From positions 1-37,959 of IMG/VR virus record IMGVR_UViG_3300006104_000817: DNA of 37,959 nucleotides. One strand, given 5' to 3'. Position 1 is the first letter of the stretch, and every line of letters starts with the position of its first letter. This document shows positions 12,701 to 37,959 of the stretch, in pieces. The translations under genes were made by a program, and so were the position numbers. The notes under the pieces are model-generated. The model saw only the letters and a program-made list of their open reading frames with translations. It was not told the DNA's origin and made no database searches. Source of the stretch: a virus.

Positions 12701-12776
12701 GGCCTCGTAGTTCAGTGAATAGAACAACGGATTTCTACTCCGTGGGTCGGGGGTTTGAATCCCTCCGAGGTCGCCA
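12701..12776 (+). tRNA. tRNA-Arg (TCT)
   Basis: Acceptor GGCCTCG/CGAGGTC with one G-T pair, D stem GTTC/GAAC, anticodon stem ACGGA/TCCGT, 7-base loop TTTCTAC with anticodon TCT, and an encoded CCA. It reads AGA, which is frequent in this AT-rich phage. The T loop is TTTGAAT rather than TTCGAAT. Confidence 0.9.
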
Positions 12777-12782
12777 CTTTTT

Positions 12783-12857
12783 GGGTCTTTAGTTCAATGG
12801 TTAGAACGGGGTACTCATAATACTTTAACGGTGGTTCGAATCCACCAAGACCCACCA
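12783..12857 (+). tRNA. tRNA with CAT anticodon (Met, or Ile2)
   Basis: Acceptor GGGTCTT/AAGACCC, D stem GTTC/GAAC, anticodon stem GGGTA/TACTT with G-T pairs, 7-base loop CTCATAA, T arm GGTGG-TTCGAAT-CCACC, CCA encoded. The G1-C72 pair argues against initiator tRNA. One of the two CAT tRNAs in the window may be lysidine-modified Ile reading ATA. Confidence 0.9.
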
Positions 12858-17341: not shown

Positions 17342-17416
17342 TGCGGAGTAGTTCAGGAGCAGAACGCTGGACTCATAATCCAGAGGTCGATGGTGCAATT
17401 CCATCCTTCGCAACCA
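17342..17416 (+). tRNA. tRNA with CAT anticodon (Met, or Ile2)
   Basis: Acceptor TGCGGAG/CTTCGCA, D stem GTTC/GAAC with a short loop, anticodon stem CTGGA/TCCAG, 7-base loop CTCATAA, T arm GATGG-TGCAATT-CCATC, CCA encoded. The T loop has G in place of the second T, unusual for a functional tRNA. Confidence 0.85.
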
Positions 17417-17419
17417 TGC

Positions 17420-17448
17420 TTGACTTTTTCATCTCATTAATGTATAAT
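17420..17448 (+). promoter_or_regulatory. consensus-like sigma70 promoter
   Basis: TTGACT 17420-17425, exactly 17 nt, TATAAT 17443-17448. It lies between the two tRNAs, with a start expected a few bases before tRNA-Gly; it should also transcribe the following small gene and gene 43. Confidence 0.85.
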
Positions 17449-17459
17449 TACTATTCGAT

Positions 17460-17535
17460 GCGGGTGAAGTGTTTTTGGTTACACGTCTGCCTTCCAAGCA
17501 GAAATAGACGAGTTCAACTCTCGCCTCCCGCTCCA
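17460..17535 (+). tRNA. tRNA-Gly (TCC)
   Basis: Acceptor GCGGGTG/CTCCCGC with one T-T mismatch, D stem GTGT/ACAC, anticodon stem TCTGC/GCAGA, 7-base loop CTTCCAA with anticodon TCC, T stem with one mismatch, CCA encoded. It reads GGA. Confidence 0.85.
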
Positions 17536-17555: not shown

Positions 17556-17870
17556 ATGAAAATTCTAGCGTTTAAATTAATTACAGGTGAAGAAGTTCTT
17601 GCCGAAATCGAAACTGAATCCGAAACCGAATTTGTTCTTGTTAATCCAGTTGGCATTGCTGTTGTCCGTGATCCAAAAACTGGACAACCACAAGTTGGCT
17701 TCGCACCTTTTCCTATCCATGCTGAACAAAAAAGTGGATCTACCATTGTATTATCTAAGAAAATTGTGGTATATAATTATGTACCAGCCGAAGATTTTAT
17801 CACCAATTACAATTCTATCTTTGGAACAGGATTGATTGTTCCCCCTAAAAAACAAATCATCACCGGTTAA
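17556..17870 (+). CDS. conserved phage protein, possible LSm-like fold
   Basis: A 104-residue protein with FKLITGEEVLAEIE, FVLVNPVGIAVV and a later KKIVVYNYVP segment: five or so strands in the Sm-like order. It resembles the protein at 484 in its opening pattern and may be a distant paralogue. The start follows GAGG, and its stop overlaps the polymerase start by one base, placing it in the gene 43 operon. Function unknown; RNA binding would be inference. Confidence 0.75.
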   Translation: MKILAFKLITGEEVLAEIETESETEFVLVNPVGIAVVRDPKTGQPQVGFAPFPIHAEQKSGSTIVLSKKIVVYNYVPAEDFITNYNSIFGTGLIVPPKKQIITG

Positions 17871-19360: not shown

Positions 19361-19400
19361 AAGTTACCGATAATAAAATTAAAAAATAAAGGTGAATGTT

Positions 19401-20514
19401 TTGAAATTATTAAAAGATATGTCTGATTCAGAATTGATTGATTATAAACATGAACTGGAAAGGAGAGTTGCGAAATATGATAATTTGCAACTTGCGAAAA
19501 AGGTGTCACTTTAACTCCGCTTACGGCGCACTTGGCTCCCCATATTTTAGATTCTATGATTTAAGAATGGCACTTGCTGTTACATTGTCTGGTCAGTTCT
19601 CTATTCGTTGGATTGAGGCTAAGATTAATGAATACATGAATAAGTTATTAGGAACTGATGCAGATTATGTTATTGCTTCGGACACAGATTCAATTTATTT
19701 AAGACTTGGTGATTTAGTTAAGAAAATTTATAGTGATGATGTTTCTGTTATAATGAATCCTAATAAAATAATCGAATTCATGGACAAAGTGTGTGAAGAT
19801 AAAATTAAACCATATATCGATAAATCATTTCAAGAATTGGCTGACTATGTTCATGCTTATGACCAGAAGATGCGGATGAAACGAGAAGCATTGGCAGACA
19901 AAGGTATCTGGACTGCTAAGAAGCGTTATATTCTTAATGTGTACAACAATGAGGGTATTACATATAACGAACCACACATGAAAGTAATGGGTTTGGAAAT
20001 GATCAAATCTTCTACTCCTCAAGCAATTCGAGTTAAGATGTCGGAAGCTATTAAGTTAATGTTATCTGGAACTGAAGATGATATACATAAGTTTATTGTT
20101 GATTTTAAAGAAGAATTTAGTAAGTTGCCCGCGGAAGAGATTTCTTCACCTCGAGGACTCAACGGATTGAATAAATACTCTGATGCTGCTACCCTATTTA
20201 AGTTGGGAACACCAATTCATGTTAGGGGTGCTATACTTTACAATCAATTTTTAAAAGACAATAAACTCACTAAAAAATATCCACTCATACAAGAAGGCGA
20301 GAAAATCAAGTTTACTTACTTGAAGATGCCCAATCATTTGAAAAATAATGTAATATCATATCCATCTCGTCTACCAAAAGAATTTAAATTACAAGAATAT
20401 ATTGACTATGATATGCAGTTCTCTAAAGCGTTCATAGATCCTATTAAGATAATTTTAGATTGTATGGGATGGAAAATAGAAAAGATGAGTACACTGGATA
20501 CATTTTTTGGATGA
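19401..20514 (+). CDS. 43: DNA polymerase gp43, C-terminal piece with an apparent +1 frameshift
   Basis: Carries motif B (KKVSLNSAYGALGSP), motif C ASDTDSIYL and the thumb with AKKRYILNVYNNEG and MGLEMIKSSTP. The first frame begins at TTG 19401 behind AAGGTGA and reads LLKDMSDSELIDYKHELER and on to KKVSL, then meets TAA 19512. A +1 shift there gives NSAYGALG and an open frame to 20514. The start codon is uncertain (TTG 19401, ATG 19419 or GTG 19392). A start inside the body frame (ATG 19438) would lose the essential Lys of motif B. The two pieces must associate, as in other split family B enzymes. Confidence 0.85.
19500..19515 (+). other. prfB-like +1 frameshift site in gene 43
   Basis: AAGGTG, three bases (TCA), then CTT TAA C. 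The bacterial RF2 gene uses an internal Shine-Dalgarno, three bases, then CTT TGA C to shift +1. The spacing and slip codon are the same; the stop is TAA instead of TGA. Slipping CTT to TTT continues as AAC TCC GCT TAC, the N-S-A-Y of polymerase motif B. Confidence 0.65.
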
Positions 20515-21476: not shown

Positions 21477-22400
21477 ATGAGCATACTTGATAAGATTAAA
21501 AAGAACACAACGATTAAAGATTCTGCTATTCTGTCGCAATCAAAATTCTTTACCGAAAAGGATATGATTCAGACTTCAATTCCTATATTAAATGTGGCAT
21601 TATCTGGTCGATTCGATGGCGGTTTAACACCCGGTTTAACAATGTTTGCAGGTCCGTCAAAACATTTTAAGACAGCATTTTCATTAATGATGGCAAAAGC
21701 ATATTTGGACAAGTATGATGATGCCGCTTTGTTATTCTATGATACTGAATTTGGTTCACCGCAATCATATTTTGATTCATTTGGTATTGATACTGATCGT
21801 GTTCTTCATACACCTATTACCGATATTGAGCAATTGAAGTTTGATATTATGAAACAACTCCAAGATTTGGCTCGCGGAGAACATTTAATTATTATTGTTG
21901 ATTCGATCGGTAATCTGGCATCAAAAAAAGAAGTAGATGATGCACTTGATCAAAAGTCTGTTGGTGATATGTCCAGAGCAAAACAAATCAAATCATTGTT
22001 TAGAATGGTTACTCCACATTTAAATCTCAAAGATATTCCAATGGTTGTAGTAAATCATGTTTACATGGAAATAGGTATGTTTCCTAAAGCCATCGTTGGA
22101 GGCGGTTGTGTTGTTGAGGGCACCAAGATTCAAACACCTGATGGATTGACTGAAATTCAGAACTTCAGGATCGGCGACCAAGTTGTCCATAAATCTGGCC
22201 AAATTGAGGTTAGACATACATGGAATCCAGAAACACTCTACCATGGTTATCCTGAATGTTTTGAGGTTGAATTTGAAGATGGATACAAAGTTGTATGTTC
22301 AGATACACACAAATTTTTTATCGGTGATATATGGATAGAGGCAAAGGATTTAGTTTCTGGTATGGATGCGAAAATCGTATCTGTAGGACCGAGAAATTGA
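21477..22400 (+). CDS. uvsX: UvsX recombinase N-terminal extein fused to split N-intein
   Basis: RecA-like strand-exchange protein, first 210 residues, then an intein N-part. The extein has the P-loop region GLTMFAGPSKHFKTAF, the Walker B strand LIIIVDSIGNL and VVVNHVYMEIGMFPKAIVGGG. Cys211 opens the intein; typical block A (CVVEGTKIQTPDG) and block B (VVCSDTHKFF) follow, ending at TGA after SVGPRN. The C-terminal half is a separate gene from 22543, so active UvsX needs protein trans-splicing. AAGGTAATTT precedes the start. Confidence 0.92.
   Translation: MSILDKIKKNTTIKDSAILSQSKFFTEKDMIQTSIPILNVALSGRFDGGLTPGLTMFAGPSKHFKTAFSLMMAKAYLDKYDDAALLFYDTEFGSPQSYFDSFGIDTDRVLHTPITDIEQLKFDIMKQLQDLARGEHLIIIVDSIGNLASKKEVDDALDQKSVGDMSRAKQIKSLFRMVTPHLNLKDIPMVVVNHVYMEIGMFPKAIVGGGCVVEGTKIQTPDGLTEIQNFRIGDQVVHKSGQIEVRHTWNPETLYHGYPECFEVEFEDGYKVVCSDTHKFFIGDIWIEAKDLVSGMDAKIVSVGPRN
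22107..22397 (+). other. N-half of the UvsX split intein
   Basis: 97 residues from Cys1 with blocks A and B, a canonical split position near where endonuclease domains usually sit. Its last residues, AKIVSVGPRN, contain the same KIVSV that opens the C-half. Confidence 0.9.
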
Positions 22401-22546
22401 ATTTTGATAGTAACTTGTGGAAAAATCCAGCATCAATAAGCCAACGCAGGGATATTTGTGTTCATTGTGGTAAAGAGAGTGTTGCTGGCAATATCAGTCG
22501 TTGGCATAATGATAATTGCAAACAAAATAAAGGTGAAACTAAATGA
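22401..22546 (+). pseudogene. homing-endonuclease zinc-finger relic between the UvsX intein halves
   Basis: An open stretch in another frame, with no start of its own, encodes CVHCGKES..ISRWHNDNC: a C-x2-C-x12-H-x3-C zinc finger very like those in phage HNH and GIY-YIG homing endonucleases (CxHCGK..RWHxDNC). No nuclease catalytic domain remains. It ends overlapping the C-intein start and appears to be the remnant of the endonuclease that once joined or invaded the intein. Confidence 0.65.
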
Positions 22547-22659
22547 AAATAGTTAGTGTAAAAACGGTAGGTAGTAAACCCGTGTATGATATTTCTATTA
22601 AATCTGATGATTATGATGAACAATATTATGTGCTGGAAAATGGAGTAATGAGCCATAAC
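22543..22659 (+). other. C-half of the UvsX split intein
   Basis: 39 residues ending SHN, with Ser as the +1 extein nucleophile. It begins MKIVSV, repeating the KIVSV at the end of the N-half, although the bases differ at synonymous positions. Confidence 0.9.
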
Positions 22660-23067
22660 TCAGGAAGTTATTATTCCGCAGATAATATTTTCATTATTGG
22701 TAGGCAACAAGAAAAAGAGGGAACAGAAATTGTCGGCTATAATTTTATTATTAATATTGAAAAGAGTAGGTATGTTCGTGAGAAATCCAAAATACCTGTT
22801 ACCGTATCTTTTGATGGTGGTATTAGCAGGTGGTCTGGTTTACTTGACCTCGCTCTAGAGTCCGGACATGTTATTAAACCTACTAATGGATGGTACTCAA
22901 AAGTAGATAAAGAAACTGGTGAGATTGAAAATAAGAAATATCGGATTAAAGATACTGATACAAAAGAATTCTGGACTCCAATTCTAAATCAAGAATCTTT
23001 TACCAAGTTCGTTTCAGATAAGTATTCCGTATCAACAGAAAATATTATGGGGGTGCATGATGATTGA
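22543..23067 (+). CDS. uvsX: split C-intein fused to UvsX C-terminal extein
   Basis: Residues 1-39 are a C-intein with block F (KPVYDISIKSDD..YYVLENG) and block G (VMSHN followed by Ser40). The extein, residues 40-174, continues SGSYYSADNIFIIGRQQ and the rest of UvsX to the C-terminus. Ligation would give IVGGG-SGSYYSADN, matching uninterrupted UvsX, and a product of about 345 aa. AAAGGTGA upstream provides a ribosome-binding site. Confidence 0.92.
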   Translation: MKIVSVKTVGSKPVYDISIKSDDYDEQYYVLENGVMSHNSGSYYSADNIFIIGRQQEKEGTEIVGYNFIINIEKSRYVREKSKIPVTVSFDGGISRWSGLLDLALESGHVIKPTNGWYSKVDKETGEIENKKYRIKDTDTKEFWTPILNQESFTKFVSDKYSVSTENIMGVHDD

Positions 23068-25611: not shown

Positions 25612-25890
25612 ATGGCACTCGTTGATTTTGATAAACTTGCAAAGCAGTATGAAAACACCGATGATTTTGGTTTCTCTGCCGTATCAGAAGAAGAATATAA
25701 TTCTGTAATCAATAAATCTACTGCTAGTGTAGAAGATTATAAAGAACGGTTACAAGAATTGGAAAAAATAATTATTCCTTTTCTCACTAAGTTACATTCG
25801 ACCGGAGATAAAGAATATATATACTGGCCAAATAGAAAAAATCTTATTGAAAAACAAATTGAGAAAATACTGAAACTAACAAGAGATTGA
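25612..25890 (+). CDS. conserved hypothetical protein
   Basis: A 92-residue protein beginning MALVDFDKLAKQYENTDDFG and continuing with a coiled-coil-like segment (SVEDYKERLQELEKIIIPFL) and a short basic end (YWPNRKNLIEKQIEKIL). Short helical proteins with this opening follow gene 41 in related phages as far as I recall. Function unknown. Confidence 0.65.
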   Translation: MALVDFDKLAKQYENTDDFGFSAVSEEEYNSVINKSTASVEDYKERLQELEKIIIPFLTKLHSTGDKEYIYWPNRKNLIEKQIEKILKLTRD

Positions 25891-25892
25891 TT

Positions 25893-26603
25893 ATGAACGC
25901 TACAGTTATTATACCAACTACAGGTGCTCCTGAAGTTCGAAATGCAATTGAATCTGTTTTAAAACAAACACACAATGCCCGATGTTATGTTGTAGTGGAT
26001 GGCCAAGAAAATTTTGATAAGACAGCAGAAATACTCAAAGAATTTAAAAACAATCAACATATAGACATCTGTTTTCTACCTCAGAATGTAGGTAAGAACG
26101 GTTTTTATGGTCACCGCGTATATGCTTCCTTCACTCATCTAATCAACACCGACTTTGTTTTATACTTAGATCAAGATAATTGGTTTGAGTCTAATCATGT
26201 GCAATCATGTATTGATAAGATTACAAATAATAAGATAGAATGGTGTTATTCTCTCAGAAAAATATGTGATAAGAATGGAAACTTTCTTTGTAATGATGAT
26301 TGTGAGTCGTTGGGTAAATGGCAATGTTTTCAGAATTATAATCATGTAGATACCAATACATACTGTATTCCCACACAGATTGCTATTAAATTAGCATCAA
26401 CATGGCATGGAGGATGGGGTCAGGACAGGGTATTTTTACAAACAATATCACACCACTTCCCGAAATTCTATTGTACGGGTGAATATACAGTAAACTATCG
26501 TGTTGATGGTAATATGGGTTCTGTTAAAAAAGAATTCTTTGAAGAAGGTAATAAAATAATGAATCAAAAATATAATGGAGTATTGCCATGGCAAAAGATT
26601 TAA
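25893..26603 (+). CDS. family 2 glycosyltransferase
   Basis: A GT-A enzyme of 236 aa: ATVIIPTTGAPEVRNAIESV is the nucleotide-binding start, VVVDGQENFDKT follows, LYLDQDNWFE holds a DxD-type metal site, and GGWGQDRVFL the catalytic-acid region. First gene of an eleven-gene sugar island. The start is ATG 25893; the TTG at 25887 is less likely. It overlaps the next gene by 16 nt. Donor and acceptor unknown. Confidence 0.85.
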   Translation: MNATVIIPTTGAPEVRNAIESVLKQTHNARCYVVVDGQENFDKTAEILKEFKNNQHIDICFLPQNVGKNGFYGHRVYASFTHLINTDFVLYLDQDNWFESNHVQSCIDKITNNKIEWCYSLRKICDKNGNFLCNDDCESLGKWQCFQNYNHVDTNTYCIPTQIAIKLASTWHGGWGQDRVFLQTISHHFPKFYCTGEYTVNYRVDGNMGSVKKEFFEEGNKIMNQKYNGVLPWQKI

Positions 26604-27448
26604 TTATCGGTGGTTTCACAAATTATGGTATTAATCAACTTAAACCATGGGTGATCTCCGCAAAAGAAGTATCAGATGATACTGATGTTGTTCTGGTGAT
26701 GGGTAATGCAACCCAAGAGACGGTGACATGGTTACAAGAACAAGGTGTTATTGTTGTTCCTATGTTACAAGTGCCCAATATTCCAATTCATGTGTTACGA
26801 TTCTTATCCATCTATGAGTATCTCCAGAAGAATTGGAAATCATATCGGTATGTTGTTACCACAGATGTTAAAGATGTTTATTTTCAAACTAATCCTTTTC
26901 ATTTTATAGATTCTGTTTTTGGCAATTTGGCCTTCTGGGGTGGACTTATTATAGCATCTGAAGGACTTAAATATAAAGATGAACCTTGGGGTAATGATAA
27001 TCTTTTTCAAGCATATGGTCAATATGTCCATAATGAATTTAAAGAGAATGAAATCTTTAATGTTGGAACTTTTGGCGGTATATCAGAATATGTAAAAGAT
27101 ATGGTATTTCATATTTTCACTAATGGGATTAATAGACCTATTCCCATTGTCGATCAAGCAGTGTTCAATGTATTAGTTAACACACAACCATTCAAAGATG
27201 TTGTGTATAAATCATCTTCTTGGGCATGTGAATTAGGTACTGTTATGGATCCATCAAAGATTGAACAGTTCAGACCAAATTTATTGTTTAGTGAACCTAC
27301 AGTGAAAGATGGAATCGTATTGAATAATGATGGTAAACCTTTTCCAATCGTACATCAATGGGATCGTGTTCCTGAATTAAAAAAGAATGTCCAACTAAGA
27401 TATGGTCAAGAAGATGATTCACAATATATTACGTTTAGGACAATATGA
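26588..27448 (+). CDS. glycosyltransferase-like protein
   Basis: A 286-residue protein with DLIIGGFTNYGINQLKPWV at the start and VVTTDVKDVYFQTNPF in the middle, a DxxD acidic site followed by QxNPF typical of a GT-A-like family. FNVGTFGG and PIVDQAVFNVLV resemble conserved later motifs. The end is VHQWDRVPEL. It probably transfers a sugar in the same pathway as its neighbours. It overlaps both flanking genes. Confidence 0.7.
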   Translation: MAKDLIIGGFTNYGINQLKPWVISAKEVSDDTDVVLVMGNATQETVTWLQEQGVIVVPMLQVPNIPIHVLRFLSIYEYLQKNWKSYRYVVTTDVKDVYFQTNPFHFIDSVFGNLAFWGGLIIASEGLKYKDEPWGNDNLFQAYGQYVHNEFKENEIFNVGTFGGISEYVKDMVFHIFTNGINRPIPIVDQAVFNVLVNTQPFKDVVYKSSSWACELGTVMDPSKIEQFRPNLLFSEPTVKDGIVLNNDGKPFPIVHQWDRVPELKKNVQLRYGQEDDSQYITFRTI

Positions 27449-28065
27449 ACGAAAATTATGAAGTAGTTGATCCTGGTCATTGGTACCAAAAACCAACAGG
27501 AAAGATAATGGAGTACGATAACAAGTATATGCAATATTATACAACAATGGACGATTCGATGTCGAAACTCCGTTATGATCTATTATCGAAGTATGTTGAT
27601 TTTAAAAGCGTATGTGATTTCGGATATGGCGATGGTGCTTTTTTAAAATATTGTCGAGAAAAAAATCATGATTGTTATGGACATGATATTTCTAATTATC
27701 CTTTGCCCGAAAATGTAAAATTTGTTAAGAATATTCAAAATGTTAATGTTGATGTAATCACATTCTTTGATTCATTAGAACATATACCTATAAAAAATTT
27801 ATCTCCTTTTTTGAGTGGATTAAATACTAATTATGTTATAATTTCATTACCCTGGTTTCATGAAAACATGGGCATGGAATGGTTTAGAACATGGAAACAT
27901 AGAAAAGAGAATGAACACTTTCACCATTTTGATGTGCATGGATTGATCGAATTATTAAGAAAATCTCACTTCTTACCTATTCATGTTTGTAATGGAGAAG
28001 ATGTGATTAGAAAACCCGTTTCTTATTTACCCAATATATTAACTATTATAGCGAAAAAAATATGA
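27445..28065 (+). CDS. class I SAM-dependent methyltransferase
   Basis: A 206-residue protein with motif I VCDFGYGDGAFLKYC, which binds S-adenosylmethionine, motif II-like HDCYGHDIS, and DVITFFDSLEHIP (motif IV). Resembles the Methyltransf_23 group found in sugar clusters. WFHENMGMEWFRTWKHRKENEHFHHFD is a His-rich stretch, quoted here in part only by its edges. The likely substrate is a sugar or glycan intermediate. Starts within the previous stop (ATGA). Confidence 0.8.
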   Translation: MNENYEVVDPGHWYQKPTGKIMEYDNKYMQYYTTMDDSMSKLRYDLLSKYVDFKSVCDFGYGDGAFLKYCREKNHDCYGHDISNYPLPENVKFVKNIQNVNVDVITFFDSLEHIPIKNLSPFLSGLNTNYVIISLPWFHENMGMEWFRTWKHRKENEHFHHFDVHGLIELLRKSHFLPIHVCNGEDVIRKPVSYLPNILTIIAKKI

Positions 28066-28859
28066 GTGAGATTTCAATTGTAACAGCATTTTTTGATATT
28101 GGGCGTGGTAATTGGACACCAGATAAAGGCCTTCCTCATTATCTACAAAGAAGTAACGACACATACTTAGAAAGATTTAGTCATTTATCTAAACTAGAAA
28201 ATGAAATTGTAATTTTTACCACAAACGATTTGGCTCCAAAAATATTTGAATATAGAAAAGATAAAGGCCCCACAAAAGTTATTATATTTCCCTTTCTCGA
28301 CATATTTAAACGAGAATTGGAATTGATATCAAAAGTACAGAAAAATCCAGAATATCAAAGCAAAATTAATCCATCACAACAAAAGAATCCTGAGTATTGG
28401 TCGCCCGAATATGTTCTTGTAAATTATCTAAAATCTTATTTTGTGAATCGTTCCATTGATTCTGGTTTAGTTTCTGGCGAACTTGTTGCCTGGTTAGATT
28501 TTGGATACTGTAGAAGTGAATCTATCCTCAATAATGTTAAAACATGGAAGTATAATTTCGATAAAGATAAGATACACTTTTTTAAAATTAAAGATTATAC
28601 TGGAACATCTATTGAACAAATTATAGCAAACAACGATGTTCATATTACAGGTCCATGTATTGTTGGTGGCAGAAATAAGTGGCCTACATTAGAAAAATTG
28701 ATGAAAAAAAGTTTTAATAAATTGATTGGCCAAAATTTAATTGATGATGACCAGACATTATTATTGATGGCTTACTTAGAAGATCCAAAATTATTTGAAC
28801 TTCATTCTGTTTCACAAACTGATTGGTTTGTTATTTTTAGGAACTTCAATGAAACTTAA
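28062..28859 (+). CDS. HtrL/YibB-family protein (putative glycosyltransferase)
   Basis: A 265-residue protein with the family opening IVTAFFDIGRGNW, then YLERFSHLSKLENEIVIFT and WLDFGYCRS. HtrL/YibB proteins lie in LPS core or surface-sugar loci of Gram-negative bacteria and are treated as probable glycosyltransferases. GPCIVGGRNKWP and DDQTLLLMAYLEDP are later conserved-looking segments. Overlaps neighbours by 4 and 11 nt. Confidence 0.75.
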   Translation: MSEISIVTAFFDIGRGNWTPDKGLPHYLQRSNDTYLERFSHLSKLENEIVIFTTNDLAPKIFEYRKDKGPTKVIIFPFLDIFKRELELISKVQKNPEYQSKINPSQQKNPEYWSPEYVLVNYLKSYFVNRSIDSGLVSGELVAWLDFGYCRSESILNNVKTWKYNFDKDKIHFFKIKDYTGTSIEQIIANNDVHITGPCIVGGRNKWPTLEKLMKKSFNKLIGQNLIDDDQTLLLMAYLEDPKLFELHSVSQTDWFVIFRNFNET

Positions 28860-29589
28860 TCTTATCTCCACATCAAATCTCGGTGACTTTTTAAATGCCA
28901 TTCCTGTATTGTCTGGAATAGTTAAAAGTACCGATGAGAAGATTGATTTAATTATTAGATCCGAAACAAGAAAATTTAAGGGATTTAGAGAATTTCTAAT
29001 GTATCAGGATTTATTTAATTCTGTTGAGTATTCAGATACTATTTTCAGTCACGGTATTAAGATTATAAGTTCATGGACCCGAGAAGATAAAAATAATCCA
29101 AATAGACCTATTGAAACGTGTCGTTATGAGAATTTTATGAAAGATAATTATAGATTAGAATTTGATGTTGATGATGATTTCATTATTAAAGTTCCGGAAT
29201 TAGATATTGATATTAAAGATACTTATTATGTTGGTGATAGATGGAGTGTCGGTGATATAGATGCCCGGCGCGAAACAAATGTCCTTTCTCATTTGAGTAA
29301 TTTCACATTCATAGATTATGATAATGATATATTAACTAATGCTTATATTATAAAGAATTTAAAAAAACCTTTTATTACAAATTTGACGGGTGTTTCTATT
29401 CTTGCTGATTTATTAAATGTTGAATCGTATGTTGTATGGAAAGCAGAAGATTGGAAGCCAGAATTCAGAAAGGGTGACAATATTGATTGGGATAATGGAA
29501 AAGATATCAATACAATTTTTGAGAAGCATTTCTATCTTAATCGTAAAACTAAATTGATTCATGCTAATGAGTTGAACACTTTATTATGA
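28849..29589 (+). CDS. GT-B-type protein, possibly family 9 glycosyltransferase-like
   Basis: A 246-residue protein beginning LNLISTSNLGDFLNAIPVL, the pattern of heptosyltransferase-like GT-B enzymes (GDxxxxxP). The C-terminal FITNLTGVSILADLLNVESYVVW corresponds to the nucleotide-sugar side of that fold. It is shorter than typical heptosyltransferases (about 320-350), so it may be reduced or only accessory. ATG 28849 follows AGGAA. Confidence 0.6.
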   Translation: MKLNLISTSNLGDFLNAIPVLSGIVKSTDEKIDLIIRSETRKFKGFREFLMYQDLFNSVEYSDTIFSHGIKIISSWTREDKNNPNRPIETCRYENFMKDNYRLEFDVDDDFIIKVPELDIDIKDTYYVGDRWSVGDIDARRETNVLSHLSNFTFIDYDNDILTNAYIIKNLKKPFITNLTGVSILADLLNVESYVVWKAEDWKPEFRKGDNIDWDNGKDINTIFEKHFYLNRKTKLIHANELNTLL

Positions 29590-30080
29590 AAACTATTAAA
29601 TACAACAATAAATATTATCCACATTTTCAAGCAGAAGGTAATGCTTCTCAATTTGCTATTCCTTTTGCCAAGCACATGTGTACCGGCATTGGATATGATA
29701 TAGGATGCAACAGACTTGATTGGGCATTTCCTGGTGCTATACCTATCGACTTAACTTTTAATAATGGATACGATGCATATAATTTGCCCGATAAATTGGT
29801 AAATTACATATATTCGAGTCATTGTTTAGAGCATCTTCCTAATTGGATTGAAGCACTGGATTATTGGACATCTAAATTACAACCAGGTGGTATATTATTT
29901 CTATATCTTCCTCATTATAGTCAAGAATATTGGAGACCTTGGAATAATAGGAAACATCTACATGCATTAAGTACTGAATTGATCCGCGAATATATGATTA
30001 ATTCATGTTATTGTAATATTTTTCATTCGGATAGAGATATGAATGATTCCTTCATGATTGTGGGTGAATTAAAGAAATGA
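29586..30080 (+). CDS. methyltransferase-like protein
   Basis: A 164-residue protein of the Methyltransf_11 type: GYDIGCNRLDW is a degenerate motif I, PIDLTF the acidic strand 2 end, YIYSSHCLEHLPNW the motif IV region, LQPGGILFLYLPHY motif VI. Small for the family. It probably methylates a sugar intermediate. Overlaps both neighbours by 4 nt. Confidence 0.7.
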   Translation: MKTIKYNNKYYPHFQAEGNASQFAIPFAKHMCTGIGYDIGCNRLDWAFPGAIPIDLTFNNGYDAYNLPDKLVNYIYSSHCLEHLPNWIEALDYWTSKLQPGGILFLYLPHYSQEYWRPWNNRKHLHALSTELIREYMINSCYCNIFHSDRDMNDSFMIVGELKK

Positions 30081-30772
30081 TATACAATATTAAAGTAGGT
30101 GCCTTTGGTGGTCAATTAAGAGCAGGTGATTTAATTGGTGTGGCTAATGTGGTTGAACATATGAGAAAGACCGATATTACTACACAGTTCTATTTGGAAT
30201 CAGATGCAGTAAAACAATCAGATTATTGCCAGATATTTTATAATTTTTTATTAAAAAATACAGATTACTTTTCTCCTACTCCAGGTGATTGTGATTTACC
30301 TTCTCGTAGAATTAATCTTTTTGATTTCCGTGATATATCGGGTGATTTAGTTAAGATACATAATACAAAAGAAAAGAAAAAGAAGATTGTGGTATTTCCA
30401 TTATTTGATGCTCCTTATAACACATATAGGAATTGGCCAAGCCATGTGTTCATAAGTATATTAGATAGTTTCAATAAGGATGAATATAAAGACTACGAAA
30501 AAATTATATGTTCCAATAAACCTTTTGATATACCAGATTGGAAATCAAGTACAGATTTTCTAGATAATATTCATCATATAATGGAAACTGAAGTATTTGT
30601 TGGAGGAGACACTTGGTCATCTCATTTTGCAGGATCGCTTGACAATGGCCCTAAAAACCTGTTATACTACTACTCTAGTAGATCATTGATACATGCTCTG
30701 CCGTTCCATTATTTAAATGGTAAAGGTAATCTGAAAACATATTGGTTGGATTTTGAAGGAACTACTTGGTAA
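30077..30772 (+). CDS. GT-B-type protein, possibly family 9 glycosyltransferase-like
   Basis: A 231-residue protein with an N-terminal LRAGDLIGVANVVEHM (compare GDxxxxxP in family 9) and a C-terminal MFVGGDTWSSHFAGSL-like segment that matches the SxxxHLAxA region of heptosyltransferases. Like the gene at 28849 it is short. It may be a sugar-nucleotide-binding or transferase protein. A strong promoter-like sequence lies within its end. Confidence 0.55.
   Translation: MIYNIKVGAFGGQLRAGDLIGVANVVEHMRKTDITTQFYLESDAVKQSDYCQIFYNFLLKNTDYFSPTPGDCDLPSRRINLFDFRDISGDLVKIHNTKEKKKKIVVFPLFDAPYNTYRNWPSHVFISILDSFNKDEYKDYEKIICSNKPFDIPDWKSSTDFLDNIHHIMETEVFVGGDTWSSHFAGSLDNGPKNLLYYYSSRSLIHALPFHYLNGKGNLKTYWLDFEGTTW
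30639..30668 (+). promoter_or_regulatory. internal promoter-like sequence
   Basis: TTGACA 30639-30644, 18-nt spacer, TATACT 30663-30668, inside the preceding coding region about 115 nt before the dehydratase gene. It could be a secondary promoter or chance in AT-rich DNA. Confidence 0.4.
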
Positions 30773-30782
30773 GGATAAAATT

Positions 30783-31808
30783 ATGACGAAAAAAGTATTG
30801 ATTACCGGAGGTGCTGGCTTTATTGCCCATCATGTTATTGATTTGTTCATGAAAACAACAGATTGGGAAATAATTAGTTTGGATAGATTAGATTATTCTG
30901 GTAATCTTAATCGATTATCTGAAGTTATGGAACAATATAATCCAACAGAACGAAAACGATTGAAAATTGTTTATCATGATCTAAAGGCAGAATTAAATCC
31001 ATTAACAATGAACTTTATTGGTAAGCCCGATACGATTCTACATTTGGCAGCATCATCACATGTTGATCGTTCGATTAGTGAACCCCTAGGATTCATTTAT
31101 GATAATATTATTGGTACAGCAAATCTTTTAGAATATGCTCGTAAATTAGATTGTCTGGATAGAATTCTTTATTTCGGTACGGATGAAATATTTGGTGTTG
31201 CTCCTCCCGGAGTTGCATATAAAGAAAGAGATCGGTACAATTCTACTAATCCTTATTCAGCATCAAAAGCATCCGCCGAAGAATTATGCGTTGGTTATGA
31301 AAATACATATAAATTACCGATGTACATAACACACACGATGAATGTATTTGGTGAAAGACAGACGATTGAAAAATTTATTCCAGCAAGTATTCGGAAGATT
31401 TATAATGATGAGAAGATTATCATCCATTCAAATCCAGCAAAAACGCAAGCGGGAAGTAGATTCTATGTTCATGCATCTGATGTTGCTGATGCATTATACT
31501 TCCTTTTAACTACACCCATTGTAAATGAGCCGGATTATGGCAATGCCAAGTGTCCTAAATTCAATATTGTGGGTAAGGAAGAAATTGATAATCTTACTTT
31601 GGCTAAAATGATTGCATCAGCACAAAATAAGGAATTAGATTATGAAATGGTTGATTTTCATTCATCCAGGCCTGGCCATGATTTACGTTATGCTCTTGAT
31701 GGTAATTATATGCGTTCATTGGGATGGGAACCTAAGGTTTCATTAGAAGAAAGAATAAATCAAGTTGTTGATTGGTCGCTTAAAAATAAACGCTGGCTGG
31801 AAATGTGA
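30783..31808 (+). CDS. NAD-dependent sugar-nucleotide dehydratase/epimerase (RmlB-like)
   Basis: Extended short-chain dehydrogenase of 341 aa. The NAD-binding GGAGFIA is at residues 9-15, LDRLDYSGNLNRL resembles RmlB, HLAASSHVDRS carries the substrate loop, FGTDEIFG has the Asp-Glu pair typical of 4,6-dehydratases, and YSASK (Tyr158, Lys162) is the catalytic pair. It would make a 4-keto-6-deoxy NDP-sugar. RPGHDLRYALD near the end is also dehydratase-like. ATG 30783 follows AAGGA. Confidence 0.9.
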   Translation: MTKKVLITGGAGFIAHHVIDLFMKTTDWEIISLDRLDYSGNLNRLSEVMEQYNPTERKRLKIVYHDLKAELNPLTMNFIGKPDTILHLAASSHVDRSISEPLGFIYDNIIGTANLLEYARKLDCLDRILYFGTDEIFGVAPPGVAYKERDRYNSTNPYSASKASAEELCVGYENTYKLPMYITHTMNVFGERQTIEKFIPASIRKIYNDEKIIIHSNPAKTQAGSRFYVHASDVADALYFLLTTPIVNEPDYGNAKCPKFNIVGKEEIDNLTLAKMIASAQNKELDYEMVDFHSSRPGHDLRYALDGNYMRSLGWEPKVSLEERINQVVDWSLKNKRWLEM

Positions 31809-32569
31809 AAACTCTAGGGATATATCATTGGAACTATAATAACAAAGCCGCACTAGATGCTTCTATATCATCATTTAGAAAGTATCATCCTCATGCACCA
31901 TATTTTTTAGCGTGTGATGGTGGCGGGCAGGATCAATATGAAGTATGTAAGAAACATAATGTGGAATATTATCATTCACAGATGAATATAGGTTATCCTT
32001 CGCAACATTGGGGGCACAATAGGAGTAATGTAAAAGAGTTCTTCAGGAGAATGTTTCTAGCCGCAATTACATTAAATACTTCTCATTTTGTTGTTTCCGA
32101 AGATGATGTGATATGTCTTAATGAAATTCAGTTTAATGAGAATTGGGAAATTGCTGCATATGATACTCGATATATTAATGGTGTATTGGCACAAAACGGA
32201 CATAATGATTTTAGTTATTTTACAGACGATGTTCAAAGTGTTATAATTGAAGTTTCTGGAGTAAAACCCAATCATCCTTATTATGGTGCTGGTGCCGGTG
32301 TTATTATTAAAACATCAACATTCATAGAAAACTTTTATAAAGTAATGTTGTTCTTGGACAAGTATTTTGATGAACTCCATGCAAAACACCCTCAGATGGG
32401 TTGGAATGATTACTTTATTCAATTATTTTATTTCGTAGCAGGAAAACCATATACAGTCAATCCTAGATTATATAATATTTTTCCAGAGAATCCTAATGCA
32501 GATTTAAATGAATTAAAAAAGAATTATGATATGATACATAATTTTAAAAATTATTATGAAGGTATATAA
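31805..32569 (+). CDS. GT-A-like glycosyltransferase
   Basis: A 254-residue protein starting with GTG 31805 in the overlap with the dehydratase stop. LGIYHWNYNNKAALDASISSF begins a Rossmann-like half; HFVVSEDDVICL holds a likely EDD metal site; YYGAGAGVIIKTSTF and MGWNDYFIQLFYFV follow as in many GT-A enzymes. Substrates unknown; part of the island. Confidence 0.65.
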   Translation: MKTLGIYHWNYNNKAALDASISSFRKYHPHAPYFLACDGGGQDQYEVCKKHNVEYYHSQMNIGYPSQHWGHNRSNVKEFFRRMFLAAITLNTSHFVVSEDDVICLNEIQFNENWEIAAYDTRYINGVLAQNGHNDFSYFTDDVQSVIIEVSGVKPNHPYYGAGAGVIIKTSTFIENFYKVMLFLDKYFDELHAKHPQMGWNDYFIQLFYFVAGKPYTVNPRLYNIFPENPNADLNELKKNYDMIHNFKNYYEGI

Positions 32570-33373
32570 ATGAAAATTAGATTATATAATCATATGTTCT
32601 TGAATGATGATGCTTCCTGGATATTCATGTTCTTGGATCAAATGAAACAACTTGAAGATTTTGGATTGCTTGATGCAACAGAAATTGTTTCTATAACCGT
32701 TTTAGGAAATGATAAACAGTTTAAATTATATGATGAGATTTCTTCCTTATATCCAAAAATAGAAACATATAAGATACCATATGGGATTACTAGTGAGGAA
32801 TTAAAACTCTTTACTCATTATAAAGGTAATATTAGTTATACGGGAAAAGAAGGACAAAAAGATTTTGTGTTTGAAGTTCCTACAATGAAAAGATTTTGGG
32901 ATGATTCACATACCCAAGATTTTTATGGTTTATATTACCACGCAAAGGGAGCAACAGCCTTTCCTAATTGGTTTAAAAACGGAGATAATATACCAAAATT
33001 TAAAAATTACTTCTATTGGAAAAAATTCTTGGAGTGGGGTTGCATTGAGAGATGGAAAGATTGTGTAAATGCTTTAGATGCAGGAAATGAAGTAGCGGGA
33101 TGCAATTATAATAATCATCCTGTTCCACATTATTCCGGCAATTTCTTTTGGTTTCGTAGTGATTATATGAAAACACTTGATGATCCTTCGGACTCAGAAT
33201 GGTGGAGAACATCTAAGCCTCCTTATTGGTTGGATAGAATGTTGCCTGAATTCTGGCCTCTACATGAAGCAAAAAATATTTTTAATTTACATAGTCCTCC
33301 TGATAGATTATGTTCTCCTAATCCAGGACTTTATGCTGAAACATATGAAAGAAAAATATATGAAAAATCTTAA
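32570..33373 (+). CDS. putative glycosyltransferase-associated protein
   Basis: A 267-residue protein that starts immediately after the previous stop. FYGLYYHAKGAT, GNFFWFRSDYMKTL and WPLHEAKNIFNLH are features I associate with uncharacterised proteins of capsular or LPS sugar loci, perhaps sugar transferases. No DxD motif stands out. The role is inferred mainly from context. Confidence 0.55.
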   Translation: MKIRLYNHMFLNDDASWIFMFLDQMKQLEDFGLLDATEIVSITVLGNDKQFKLYDEISSLYPKIETYKIPYGITSEELKLFTHYKGNISYTGKEGQKDFVFEVPTMKRFWDDSHTQDFYGLYYHAKGATAFPNWFKNGDNIPKFKNYFYWKKFLEWGCIERWKDCVNALDAGNEVAGCNYNNHPVPHYSGNFFWFRSDYMKTLDDPSDSEWWRTSKPPYWLDRMLPEFWPLHEAKNIFNLHSPPDRLCSPNPGLYAETYERKIYEKS

Positions 33374-34040
33374 ACAAATATTCGATAATGTAGAATTAAG
33401 TTCCGATAAATGGGAACCATATTTTAATGTATACGAAACATACTTTTCTAAATTTATCAATAGTTCTCCCGTTTTTGTTGAAGTAGGTGTTCAAAAGGGT
33501 GGATCATTATTGATGTGGGAGAAATATTTTGGTGGATCATCAACTATTATTGGAATTGATATTGATCCTTCCGTATTAGATCACCAAAAACAATATGGCA
33601 AAAACACAAAAGTTTTATTGGGTGATCAAGGTTCTCCAGAATTTTGGGATGAATTTTTAGAAAAATATCCAAAAATTGATTTATTCGTTGATGACGGATC
33701 ACATTCTATGCACGACCAAAAAATAACATTAGAGAAAGTTTTTCCGCACATTTCTGTTGGTGGAGTCTATATATGTGAAGATACTCATTCTAGTTATTTT
33801 ACAGATAGCGGTACAGGATGTGGAATACAAAATAAAGATAATTTTATTGAATATTGTAAGGATTTAATTGATATATTACATTTAAATTGGTCGGGTTATG
33901 GTAGAGGAGATATTAATCCAAATAAAATTGAAATGTATGAAACATTGACCTCTATTCATTTCTATGATAGTATGGTTGTTTTATTGAAAGATGAAAAAAA
34001 GGAGTATAAACGTGTTTTCCCAACCAATCCAAAAAATTGA
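33360..34040 (+). CDS. class I SAM-dependent methyltransferase (CmcI/macrocin-type)
   Basis: A 226-residue enzyme with FVEVGVQKGGSLLMW (motif I), IIGIDIDPS, DLFVDDGSHSMHDQ with metal-site-like Asp residues, and GGVYICEDTHSSY. This arrangement resembles sugar O-methyltransferases of natural-product clusters (MycE or CmcI type). The start is ATG 33360 or 33345; both overlap the previous gene. Substrate probably a sugar of this island. Confidence 0.75.
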   Translation: MKNLKQIFDNVELSSDKWEPYFNVYETYFSKFINSSPVFVEVGVQKGGSLLMWEKYFGGSSTIIGIDIDPSVLDHQKQYGKNTKVLLGDQGSPEFWDEFLEKYPKIDLFVDDGSHSMHDQKITLEKVFPHISVGGVYICEDTHSSYFTDSGTGCGIQNKDNFIEYCKDLIDILHLNWSGYGRGDINPNKIEMYETLTSIHFYDSMVVLLKDEKKEYKRVFPTNPKN

Positions 34041-35202
34041 TAATTGTTTAGCATGCGGTTCAGATAATTTAATGCCTGTTCTTGATTTAAATACACAACC
34101 ACTGGCTAATTCATATAAGAAAGGCAAGTATGCCGCCGAAGAATCTTATCCTTTGGCAATTAATGTGTGTAAAAATTGCCATCATGTTCAATTGACGCAT
34201 ATGGTTGATCCTGATTTGATGTATAAAGATTATCTTTATGTTTCCGGTACAACAAAAACATATTTGGATTATATGGACTGGTTTGGTCCATTCTGTCGTG
34301 AAAAACATGGCGATCCAAAATCAGTATTGGATATTGGGTGTAATGATGGTAGTCAACTCAATGTTTTTAAGTCCATGGGATTAGATACATATGGCGTTGA
34401 TCCTGCTGTGAATCTTTATCCATTATCTTCGGAGAATCATAATGTCTGTTGTGGTTATTTTGATGATAATTATAAACAAAAAGTGGATCTGATTATATCC
34501 CAGAATTCATTTGCACATAATCAGAATCCATTGGAATTTCTATTGAACAGTAAGAATAACTTAAATCCCAACGGATTGATTTTTATTCAAACATCTCAGT
34601 CTAATATGATCACACACAATGAATTTGATACCATTTACCATGAACATATTTCATTTTATAACATTAAATCAATGAAAATGTTATGTAACCGCGCTGGACT
34701 AAATTTGATTGATGTGGTTAAGACGCCAATTCATGGTATAAGTTATGTGTTCATTATATCAGCAGATCGTGAAGCACCATATACTATTGATAATCTAATT
34801 GCTATGGAAACTGTATCTGGACTGTATAATGATGTAACATATCAAGAATATTCCGAAACTTGTCTCAAATCGGTGGAAAAGAGCAAAAATTACATTGATT
34901 CTATGAAAAAGAATGGTGCCATAATTGTCGGTTACGGTGCTCCTGCTAAAGGAAACACATTTCTCAATTTCTCAAAGATTCGGATGGACTTTATTGTTGA
35001 TGATAATAAACTGAAGCAAGGCATGTTCACTCCAGGATCATCTATTCCTATTGTAAGCTCCGATGATATAAAGAACCTCAATCCTGATGTTTTTGTTGTT
35101 TTTGTACCTTTAGCCTGGAACTTCTTTAAAGAAATTAAACAAAGAATCAAGGCAATCAGAAACAATCCCAACGATGTGTTTTTAAACCTAAACGATATTT
35201 GA
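34012..35202 (+). CDS. NDP-sugar C-methyltransferase (three-domain type)
   Basis: A 396-residue enzyme of the TylC3/NovU kind: N-terminal zinc-binding domain with Cys12, Cys15, Cys53 and Cys56; SAM-binding VLDIGCNDGSQ near 105; and a C-terminal domain with GYGAPAKGNT and FIVDDN. Such enzymes add a methyl group to a carbon of a 4-keto-6-deoxy sugar, the product of the RmlB-like dehydratase encoded upstream. The start is GTG 34012 behind AAGGAG. Its SAM domain contains QNSFAHNQNP and the YHEHISFY motif typical of the family. Confidence 0.88.
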   Translation: MFSQPIQKIDNCLACGSDNLMPVLDLNTQPLANSYKKGKYAAEESYPLAINVCKNCHHVQLTHMVDPDLMYKDYLYVSGTTKTYLDYMDWFGPFCREKHGDPKSVLDIGCNDGSQLNVFKSMGLDTYGVDPAVNLYPLSSENHNVCCGYFDDNYKQKVDLIISQNSFAHNQNPLEFLLNSKNNLNPNGLIFIQTSQSNMITHNEFDTIYHEHISFYNIKSMKMLCNRAGLNLIDVVKTPIHGISYVFIISADREAPYTIDNLIAMETVSGLYNDVTYQEYSETCLKSVEKSKNYIDSMKKNGAIIVGYGAPAKGNTFLNFSKIRMDFIVDDNKLKQGMFTPGSSIPIVSSDDIKNLNPDVFVVFVPLAWNFFKEIKQRIKAIRNNPNDVFLNLNDI

Positions 35203-35214
35203 AAGATTTTGTTG

Positions 35215-35222
35215 TATAAATA
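35215..35222 (+). promoter_or_regulatory. T4-type late promoter
   Basis: TATAAATA just after the sugar island and 41 nt before the late operon. It separates the two functional regions. Confidence 0.85.
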
Positions 35223-35263
35223 GATTTACAACCATAGTGTGTTGGAACTCTGTAAGGGCATCA

Positions 35264-36448
35264 ATGAAATCGTTTTTATATTTTCTGAAAGAAGAAACCG
35301 AGGAAACTGACGGTAAACTTAAGCATATTCATCATGCTGAGGATCGTCCTTTAATCCATGGTGCTAAGGGTTTTGTACACACACATAATGCTTTAATGCA
35401 AGCACACAATCATATTAAGTCTGGTGGAAACAGTTCCGCATTGACTATGAAATATGACGGTTCTCCGGCAGTTGTATTTGGTCATCATCCAGAAACAGGT
35501 AAATTCTTTGTTGCATCTAAGTCTGCTTTTAATAAGAATCCTAAGTTAAACTATACACATAAAGACATTGAGAAGAATCATGGCCACGCTCCAGGCCTTA
35601 TGGAAAAACTCCATGCAGCCCTTAATCACCTTAAGAAAGTAGCACCTAAAACAGGTGTATATCAAGGTGATTTAATGCACTCTGGTACTGATTTAAAACA
35701 TAATAAGAATGGCTCGGTATCCTTTACACCTAATACCATTACATATAAAGCCAAAGGTGATGAAGCAGAGAAACTTAAAAAGTCTAAAATTGGTATTGTT
35801 ACTCACACACAATATCACGGTAATGATATCAAAACAATGACCGCTGATTCACATCCAGATCTGCACAATTTCACACAACATCCTGATGTTTGGCAAAAAT
35901 CACCAAATCATGATACAAAACAAGTACACTATTCAGAACAGGATCAAACAGAATTTAATAACCACATGAATGCCGCCAAAAAGATTCATGATGAACACAA
36001 GAAAGAGATGTATAAGGCTACAGAACTTCATCGCGGAGAAGGTGGACACTTATCAACATATATAAATCATACAGTTAGAACAGGTGAAATTCCTTCATCG
36101 GATGGTTTAAAAAAACACATTGCCAATCATTATAAAAAAGCAATAAGTAAATTAAAAACTCCTGTTGCCCAAGGTCGTAAAGATACAGAATTTAAAATGC
36201 ATATCAACCACATAGATGATAACAAAGAACACTATGATAATTTGTTAAAAATGCACAACCACTTACAACAAGCAAAGAATGTTTTAGTGAACACATTACA
36301 ACAACATGAAGGTGGCCTAGAACACCACATCGATGGTAAGAAAACAGGCCCTGAGGGATTTGTTGTTAATCATGCTGGTGAACCAACTAAATTGGTAGAC
36401 CGTAAAGAATTTGCCAAATCAAATTTATTAAAGGGGGTAAGAAAATGA
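35264..36448 (+). CDS. KxDG nucleotidyltransferase (ligase-like; DUF6267-like) with N-terminal capsid-targeting-like peptide
   Basis: A 394-residue protein. MKSFLYFLKE at the start resembles a T4 head-targeting peptide ending in an LxE cleavage motif. The core carries ligase-superfamily motifs: KYDG (Lys63-Gly66, motif I, in LTMKYDGSPAVVF), GVYQGDLM (motif III-like), PEGFVV (Glu364-Val368, motif IV) and TKLVDRKEF (motif V). A helical His- and Lys-rich insert occupies about 195-330. It may be an RNA or DNA ligase, or an enzyme modifying another end or protein. ATG 35264 follows TAAGG. First gene behind a late promoter. Confidence 0.75.
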   Translation: MKSFLYFLKEETEETDGKLKHIHHAEDRPLIHGAKGFVHTHNALMQAHNHIKSGGNSSALTMKYDGSPAVVFGHHPETGKFFVASKSAFNKNPKLNYTHKDIEKNHGHAPGLMEKLHAALNHLKKVAPKTGVYQGDLMHSGTDLKHNKNGSVSFTPNTITYKAKGDEAEKLKKSKIGIVTHTQYHGNDIKTMTADSHPDLHNFTQHPDVWQKSPNHDTKQVHYSEQDQTEFNNHMNAAKKIHDEHKKEMYKATELHRGEGGHLSTYINHTVRTGEIPSSDGLKKHIANHYKKAISKLKTPVAQGRKDTEFKMHINHIDDNKEHYDNLLKMHNHLQQAKNVLVNTLQQHEGGLEHHIDGKKTGPEGFVVNHAGEPTKLVDRKEFAKSNLLKGVRK

Positions 36449-37842
36449 AATCATTTAAATATTGGTTATCAGAAAATATATTACAAGAAAATTTTGGAAA
36501 TGACCATGATTTTAGTGGTTTAATACCATATCATTCATTTAAAACCAACGATGGTCACGAAATTGATGTACATGTTTTTAATAACCCACAGGGAAAACAT
36601 GCATTATTTTATAATAAAAATTTAAAAGGTGTTACTAAATTGGTACATTGGTCAAAAAACCCTGAACATCTTAGTAAATCTGATTTAGAAAAAGCTGGCC
36701 ACGAAGAAAAAGATAATGAAGAACACCTACATGAAGATTTTTTAATTGAAAAATTAACTGCAAATTCTGCAGGAAAAATAGCAGAACATTCAGCGGTTAT
36801 GCATATGATTGGGCATATGCATAAACAAAATAATACCTATAATTCAAAAGAGCACAAAAAAGATATTGAACCACACAAAAAAGCTATTCATGAACTTGGA
36901 AAAAATGCGACCCCACAAGAAGTTGGTTTAAGAGTACGTCATGGACAAGAAATGGCCAATGCCGCTTTACAATCATTACACACCGAACACGGACCATATA
37001 TGAAAATTGTCGGTGTTGGTCATACCGCACAACCGGGAGATATTGGTCGATTTAGCAAAGGCAAACATAATGACGACCAAACAAATCCATCGGATATGGC
37101 AGTTCATTTTAAAGTACCTAAATCTAAAAGTTTGAAAGAAGAAACGGATGACGGTCATGAACACCATTACGAAGGATTCTCATTAAAATCTTCCAGTAAA
37201 CAAAAAAATATAACTTCTAGAAATCCAGCAATACACCTATACGGTGTATTGGATCATCCTACTAGGAAATTAAACACTAAAGAAATTTCATCAAAAGGTT
37301 TAAAAAATGTTCACAAAATTATGGGACATCCAAATAAAACCGATAAAGAAAGAAAAGATATTGTCAGGCAACACCGAGCAAAAGAAGGTGTTACCAGTGG
37401 TTCTAAAATTGAATTAACATCTAACGAACATAATAGAAAAGTACATGAAAATTTAGCTAAAGAGTTACACAATCAATTGAAACATTTAACCGGCCATACG
37501 AGTGATGCAGAACACCATAAGATTGGTAAGATGTTACATGACCATCTAACTCCTAAAACAAGTATGCCATATTCAAAAATTCATGTACAAGGACATAGTG
37601 AAGATAATGTTCATGCAACTGTTACTCCTGGAAGTGACCATCCTTTGAATAAAGTATTTAAAAATAAAAAAACAAGATATTCTTCTTCCAGATCAGGAAA
37701 TACGGTTACTATACATAAGGTTGAAAAGGACGGTTCACTCACTCCATTAGCACATTATAGGCCTAAAGCATCAGATACCGCATTTGCTTCAAGTTCACAC
37801 AAGTGGGACGTTAAAACTGCAAATACTCATTCAAGAAAATAA
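36445..37842 (+). CDS. late protein with capsid-targeting-like peptide and possible PD-(D/E)xK nuclease core
   Basis: A 465-residue His- and Lys-rich protein that I do not recognise as a whole. It begins MKSFKYWLSE, the same type of head-targeting peptide with LSE as the cleavage motif. NPSDMAVHF (Asp217) followed about 30 residues later by EGFSLKSS (Ser246, Lys248) resembles the D...SxK active site of some restriction-fold nucleases; the preceding helix (AEHSAVMHMIGHM) could supply the Glu. This is a motif-level suggestion. ATGA overlap with the ligase-like gene. Confidence 0.6.
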   Translation: MKSFKYWLSENILQENFGNDHDFSGLIPYHSFKTNDGHEIDVHVFNNPQGKHALFYNKNLKGVTKLVHWSKNPEHLSKSDLEKAGHEEKDNEEHLHEDFLIEKLTANSAGKIAEHSAVMHMIGHMHKQNNTYNSKEHKKDIEPHKKAIHELGKNATPQEVGLRVRHGQEMANAALQSLHTEHGPYMKIVGVGHTAQPGDIGRFSKGKHNDDQTNPSDMAVHFKVPKSKSLKEETDDGHEHHYEGFSLKSSSKQKNITSRNPAIHLYGVLDHPTRKLNTKEISSKGLKNVHKIMGHPNKTDKERKDIVRQHRAKEGVTSGSKIELTSNEHNRKVHENLAKELHNQLKHLTGHTSDAEHHKIGKMLHDHLTPKTSMPYSKIHVQGHSEDNVHATVTPGSDHPLNKVFKNKKTRYSSSRSGNTVTIHKVEKDGSLTPLAHYRPKASDTAFASSSHKWDVKTANTHSRK

Positions 37843-37845
37843 TAA

Positions 37846-37959
37846 ATGAAAACATTTCTACAAATAGTTGAAGAACAAGAATCTACACATAATCCTGTGG
37901 TGATGGCCTTTGGTCGTATGAATCCTCCAACAACAGGACATCTTAAACTAATTGATAAA
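37846..37959 (+). CDS. cytidylyltransferase-fold protein with capsid-targeting-like N-terminus, cut by the right edge
   Basis: Only the first 38 residues are in the window. MKTFLQIVEE resembles the N-terminal peptides of the two preceding late proteins. FGRMNPPTTGHLKLI is the N-terminal TxGH nucleotide-binding motif of the nucleotidylyltransferase superfamily (NMN or FAD adenylyltransferase, cytidylyltransferase and relatives). It starts 3 nt after the previous stop and is third in the same late operon. The substrate cannot be judged from this fragment. Confidence 0.75.
   Translation, partial: MKTFLQIVEEQESTHNPVVMAFGRMNPPTTGHLKLIDK

Follow-up and report, generated by a model that had tools for sequence, protein, structure and literature searches.

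The capsid targeting sequence (CTS) of phage T4 has been known since the 1990s, from a few small T-even proteins. The first 10 residues of T4 ipIII are sufficient for targeting, and amber-suppression analysis of ipIII assigned residues 4 and 7 mainly to targeting and residues 8 and 10 to processing, the gp21 cleavage site being located after L/I-X-E (PMC9026906). T4 Ip1-3 inhibit GmrSD (PMC12373910), and the enzyme T4 Alt is loaded into the head and undergoes gp21 processing (PMC9026906). Because the T4 review suggests that the CTS may let T4-like phages incorporate various proteins (PMC9026906), the principle itself is already known. For capsid targeting together with cyanophages, a search of the open-licence literature returned only this review, and for DUF6267, the family of one protein described below, it returned nothing. 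In the passages considered here, the cyanophage virion papers name no packaging signal, and one of them requests proof of packaging.

A three-gene operon with a shared start

The DNA analyzed here (the window), 37,959 bases long, comes from IMG/VR and represents part of a freshwater T4-like virus; among its genes are those for SbcCD, clamp, clamp loader, DNA polymerase, UvsX, and helicase. The family B DNA polymerase and UvsX each consist of two ORFs (17870 to 20514 and 21477 to 23067), with separate matches to the two PHROG profile halves, and four tRNA genes are arranged as two pairs (12701 to 12854 and 17342 to 17532). At the right end of the window, three consecutive ORFs, A, B, and C, start with MKSFLYFLKE, MKSFKYWLSE, and MKTFLQIVEE, respectively, as quoted in the initial annotation. 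All three lie on the plus strand. A (394 aa, 35264 to 36448) and B (465 aa, 36445 to 37842) begin with the ATG at 35264 and 36445, and their stop and start codons overlap as ATGA. C begins at 37846, with a spacing of 3 bases after the B stop, and is truncated by the contig end after 38 codons (37846 to 37959). The complete C, 665 aa in size, was taken from a near-identical contig (L002:5265-7262; last 400 bases identical). Directly upstream of this operon lies a sugar/methyltransferase cluster (25887 to 35202), which includes a three-part C-methyltransferase (PF08421, PF13489, and PF08484).

A T4-type late promoter element, TATAAATA, the T4 late promoter core, is located at 35215 to 35222 on the plus strand, 49 nt upstream of the A start. 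The same element was found upstream of DUF6267 genes in 41 of 97 distinct regions, almost always between −48 and −59, compared with a background frequency of 0.009 per 120 nt. Over the whole window it was not enriched (4 versus 8.3 expected); only its position upstream of DUF6267 genes is informative, not the window-wide count. Between the promoter and the ribosome-binding site of A, we observed a conserved 5'-UTR hairpin, ACAACCATAGTGTGTTGG (35228 to 35245, plus strand), with a 5-bp stem and a CAWAGTGT loop. Its 26 distinct versions contain paired exchanges from C-G to U-A (20 and 6) and from G-C to A-U (20 and 5), and the window copy has a disrupted outermost pair. One copy per contig is present in the window, L002, and the relatives G003, G005, G006, and G010, always just upstream of A. 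A search with the strict pattern gave none in the other phages examined, and comparison with Rfam gave no match at the gathering threshold.

A matches Pfam PF19782 (DUF6267) with an E value of 5e-100 and 335.8 bits, compared with a curated cut-off of 27. Its AlphaFold2 model has a pLDDT of 91.7, with the core above 90; the low-confidence parts are residues 4 to 14, which comprise the tag and a linker (pLDDT below 50), and the last few residues, so that the model places the tag outside the confidently folded core. Residues K63, D65, and G66 (motif I, KxDG) and E364 and G365 (motif IV, EG) are invariant among 51 sequences; in A itself, the motifs read KYDGSP, PEGFV, and KLVDR. RNA or tRNA ligases occupy all of the top 17 places among the structural matches (Z 9.1 to 7.2); the best match extends over 183 residues, and T4 Rnl2 is matched with a Z of 7.8. 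Since no single Foldseek match was significant (best E 0.03), we regard the RNA-ligase-like nucleotidyltransferase fold as likely and the corresponding activity as presumptive. A search of PDB sequences returned nothing convincing for A or C, and A did not match the solved ligases.

B has no Pfam or PHROG family. Its model is weak (pLDDT 72.9), and the best structural matches are the restriction endonucleases HinP1I (Z 7.6, rmsd 12.8) and MspI (Z 6.0). Residues D217 and S246-L-K248 are invariant in the B family. As a guess from the model, B may be a PD-(D/E)XK-type nuclease. The C fragment matches phrog_3041 (E 2e-9), and the full-length protein matches CTP_transf_like (PF01467; 8e-7, 29.7 bits versus a cut-off of 21) and Zeta_toxin (1e-5), giving a layout in which a cytidylyltransferase-like domain comes first and a Zeta-toxin-like P-loop domain second. 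A HIGH-type motif, GRMNPPTTGH, starts 13 residues past the tag, and relatives of C carry the tags MKSFLELYEE, MKTFLELVEE, and MKSFKQLIVE. By its domains, C looks like an NMNAT/cytidylyltransferase-like protein joined to a kinase. The bodies of A, B, and C are unrelated (DUF6267, no family, and cytidylyltransferase-like), in agreement with the initial annotation that these proteins otherwise differ. Its description of all three as enzymes fits A, as RNA-ligase-like, and C, as a nucleotidyltransferase/kinase, and extends to B tentatively.

Tag positions and the gp21 protease

The proposed CTSs occupy 35264 to 35293 in A, 36445 to 36474 in B, and 37846 to 37875 in C, all on the plus strand. The residues at positions 4 and 7 are F4/F7 in A, F4/W7 in B, and F4/I7 in C. 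At positions 8 to 10, LKE of A, after which the cut is expected, and LSE of B fit L/I-X-E, and VEE of C has V in place of L/I. In B, a second LxE (LQE) precedes NFGNDHDF, and [LIV]xE stands directly before the invariant NFG in 10 of 10 aligned relatives, the preceding residues being variable.

To count such starts, we used a strict motif of ten residues based on the start of T4 ipIII, M[KQRN]x[FYLIWM]xx[FYWLIMV][LIVMF]xE, scored at every candidate start with same-frame non-start codons as the control. In the window, A and B match versus 0.00 expected (control 0/3,207), and C is too short for counting. None of the other called window ORFs carries the motif; the concern that it might be equally common in early proteins found nothing to sustain it there. 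The near-identical contig L002 has 4 matches versus 0.00 expected, and the relatives G003, G006, and G010 have 5 (0.17), 4 (0.11), and 5 (0.13). Among cyanophages, S-CREM2, S-CRM01, and P-SSM2 have 5 (0.18), 4 (0.30), and 3 (0.35). T4, the positive control, gave two genes starting with MKTYQEFIAE (products of 100 and 193 aa, which we assign to ipII and ipIII) together with gene 61.1, and the T4-like phages HTVC008M, S-PM2, and P-RSM6 gave zero matches. In Melnitz, a relaxed motif returned mixed matches and the strict motif a single one (MQGFKTFLSE). The strict form undercounts, because the tag length varies.

Small proteins have this start as well. T4 gene 61.1 (L082, T4 18966-19130), which encodes an uncharacterized protein of 54 aa, begins with MKTFKEFIKE. 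Small Gly-rich and Lys-rich proteins of 63 to 71 aa with the same tag are found in the freshwater relatives G003, G006, and G010 (L065-L072 and L077-L079).

We gathered relatives of A mostly with patterns from the protein core, the first 47 loci having been found via a tagged query. The start of the core could be recognised in 120 DUF6267 relatives. A script assigned a strict or relaxed tag to 103 of them; of the other 17, several show a shifted tag on inspection by eye, and three (L466, L467, and L469) begin directly at MSKNTHLEHLED without a tag. The cyanophage DUF6267 proteins of S-SZBM1, S-CRM01, and P-RSM6 likewise start at the core without a tag. In S-PM2 (103025-104804, L062), the DUF6267 gene is broken in the deposited sequence, and its C-terminal half forms an in-frame fusion to a cytidylyltransferase. 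From 49 non-redundant DUF6267 relatives, we obtained column information of 2.88 bits at position 4, 2.50 at position 7, 2.71 at position 8, and 2.95 at position 10, versus 0.8 to 1.6 bits for the remaining columns 2 to 14. In this alignment, the informative columns coincide with the residues assigned to targeting and processing in T4; the sequences were not selected for this match to an experiment on another phage, though the first 47 loci came from the tagged query.

The gp21 protease (PF03420), which the initial annotation proposed to locate, is absent from the 38-kb window and is present in two close relatives (E values of 7e-34 in G003 and 1e-32 in G006), as well as in 11 of 11 reference phages. 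For gp21 and gp23 (PF07068), co-occurrence with tagged contigs (5/14 versus 7/31 for gp21 on long contigs) decides neither way, as the contigs are fragments. The gp23 proteins of G003 and G006 keep an LxE (LME and LNE) at the T4-like maturation position, matching the LxE that stands before the conserved segment of gp23 in Melnitz and others.

Taken together, we consider it highly probable that the N-termini of A, B, and C are T4-type capsid targeting sequences, which would confer prohead entry, a gp21-type cut, and injection with the DNA. Under this model, the three proteins would be expressed late, and the ten-residue tag, with an aromatic or hydrophobic side chain at each of positions 4 and 7, would draw them into the prohead core. 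A gp21-type protease would then cut after [L/I/V]xE at positions 8 to 10, leaving the mature enzyme inside the head, from which it would enter the host together with the phage DNA. With A as an RNA-ligase-like enzyme, B possibly as a nuclease, and C as a nucleotidyltransferase/kinase, the cargo could be of use at the onset of infection. We speculate that a pre-made ligase and an NMNAT/kinase might allow tRNA cleavage or NAD loss inflicted by host defence to be repaired at once.

Tagged proteins in virions and among viral contigs

The S-CREM2 report lists 52 virion proteins with coordinates (PMC10665884). By that list, 5 of 6 strict-tag proteins of S-CREM2 are in the virion, versus 52 of 219 proteins overall (P 0.003), and outside the structural blocks 4/5 tagged versus 10/136 untagged proteins were detected (P 3e-4). 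The tagged and listed proteins are an S-adenosylmethionine hydrolase (MKDFDSFLEE), an APH-like kinase (VKRFDAFLTE), a cytidylyltransferase (MKNFSSFLTE), gp13 (MKDLHSFLTE), and gp136 (MQTFSMFFSE). Cytidylyltransferases reported as virion proteins in two further papers start with MRFRQFIIEA in S-SZBM1 (PMC9146016) and with MKSFLQFLKE in S-SCSM1 (PMC9602691). Neither virion list includes the untagged DUF6267 proteins, gp141 of S-SZBM1 and gp87 of S-CREM2. The S-CREM2 authors remark that highly expressed enzymes may co-purify with CsCl-purified virions (PMC10665884). The Cas9 in the same S-CREM2 list (L052:7704-10313, minus strand) has a tag-like stretch, LRFASFMAEA, at residues 17 to 26, with no ATG directly before it, possibly reflecting a misannotated start or an internal tag.

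These lists bear on the strongest alternative, in which the tag does lead into the prohead, and the proteins act in head assembly or are degraded there, with no delivery to the next host. Precedent exists in the T4 core proteins gp22 and gp67, which, once inside the prohead, are for the most part cleaved and lost (PMC9026906). Two small tagged proteins, S-SZBM1_191 and S-SCSM1_30 (105 to 106 aa), are in keeping with such a fate, as neither appears among the listed or marked virion proteins. Against it, tagged enzymes were detected in mature virions of three cyanophages, and the cargo is enzymatic and varies between phages, unlike scaffold. We therefore consider this alternative improbable. One tagged family, frequent and about 105 aa long (SVNISGDFNGNLY...), adjoins structural genes (S-SCSM1 44215-44535, S-SZBM1 122311-122628, and many among L165-L282) and does not appear in the virion lists.

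A second alternative, which we rate as very improbable, is that the shared start forms an amphipathic helix of a general kind, or reflects chance and common descent, with no targeting role. The motif is indeed short and degenerate, and it also fits a few helical starts that may be unrelated, such as MKNIYEVLDEFE on an uncharacterized protein. We scanned viral contigs with a degenerate DNA pattern for MKxFxxF[ILVMF]xE and found that 108 of the 122 viral matches listed lie at ORF starts. A permuted pattern gave 17/119, and the unpermuted one gave 18/118 in bacterial genomes (Fisher P of about 1e-33 and 1e-32, respectively, both nominal because contigs may be related). An ORF-start enrichment that is absent from both controls argues against a general helix, as does the spread of the tag, among the matches listed, over 46 unrelated bodies. 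The agreement of the conserved positions with T4 genetics and the predicted location of the tag outside the folded core of A point the same way. The initial annotation's reading of these starts as T4-like targeting peptides thus gains support from the conserved positions, the ORF-start enrichment, and the tagged virion enzymes of cyanophages. That the tag instead directs proteins to the baseplate, tail, or another virion part is hardly credible: virion proteomics gives no location, and some tagged genes, such as S-CREM2 107301, lie near tail or neck genes, but the same motif is proven to target the head in T4 (PMC9026906), and its LxE end is a head protease site.

The tag is modular and is shared by many enzyme families. 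The 108 listed tagged proteins fall into 46 clusters with no detectable similarity past residue 12, and the Pfam matches obtained with 43 representatives include DUF6267, adenylate kinase, RimK ATP-grasp, DnaJ, SET, GNAT acetyltransferase, HAD phosphatase, and cytidylyltransferase. We discarded gene duplication as the source of the common start, as the tagged bodies form these clusters without BLAST similarity. Two tagged proteins of other viruses, at L204:10529-11047 and L220:3736-4149, have, by eye, a YHGT motif like that of ADP-ribosyltransferases, and would parallel the packaged Alt of T4.

Beyond the three genes of the window, we find it reasonably probable that one ten-residue tag serves aquatic T4-like phages as a general loading code, with dozens of unrelated enzymes packed, trimmed, and injected, and that the tag alone would predict the injected proteome from metagenomes. 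The cargo of such a code would comprise RNA-ligase-like DUF6267 proteins, NMNAT, nucleotide kinases, ATP-grasp, SET, GNAT, and DnaJ proteins, SAM hydrolase, and perhaps Cas9, and the injected enzymes would amount to a first-response kit against host defences. The injected proteins of these phages are little known, and the tag offers a mechanism for the unexplained virion enzymes of cyanophages, as well as a sequence rule that picks injected-protein candidates from metagenomes. What such phages put into the cell before the first gene is read becomes a directly testable question. The findings suggest that, along with their DNA, these phages bring a prepared set of tools into the cell.

Comparison with known systems

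By the open-licence literature, what is new here is the presence of the tags on enzymes of the aquatic branch, their breadth, and the link to virion proteomes. The closest likeness is to T4 IPII and IPIII (MKTYQEFIAE), with which A, B, and C share a ten-residue N-terminus with F/Y at position 4, F/W/I at 7, L/I/V at 8, and E at 10, the occurrence of the tag on unrelated proteins, and a gp21-family protease encoded in the genomes of relatives. Unlike the small anti-restriction cargo of the T4 IPs, the proteins described here are large and enzyme-like, and are encoded in one operon of a Kyanoviridae-like branch. T4 Alt provides the likeness of a head-packaged enzyme, as A, B, and C would be. The Alt propeptide differs from the tag. 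A resembles T4 Rnl1 and Rnl2 in its predicted fold and KxDG motif; what sets it apart from them is HxxHxED, the tag, and the long C-terminal helices that precede motif IV. With S-CREM2, S-SZBM1, and S-SCSM1, the likeness lies in the family of C, which is tagged in these phages and found in their virions. The gene order helicase - DUF6267 - cytidylyltransferase of S-SZBM1 is the same as that of the window, whereas the DUF6267 proteins of S-SZBM1 and S-CREM2, in contrast to A, are untagged and do not figure in the virion lists.
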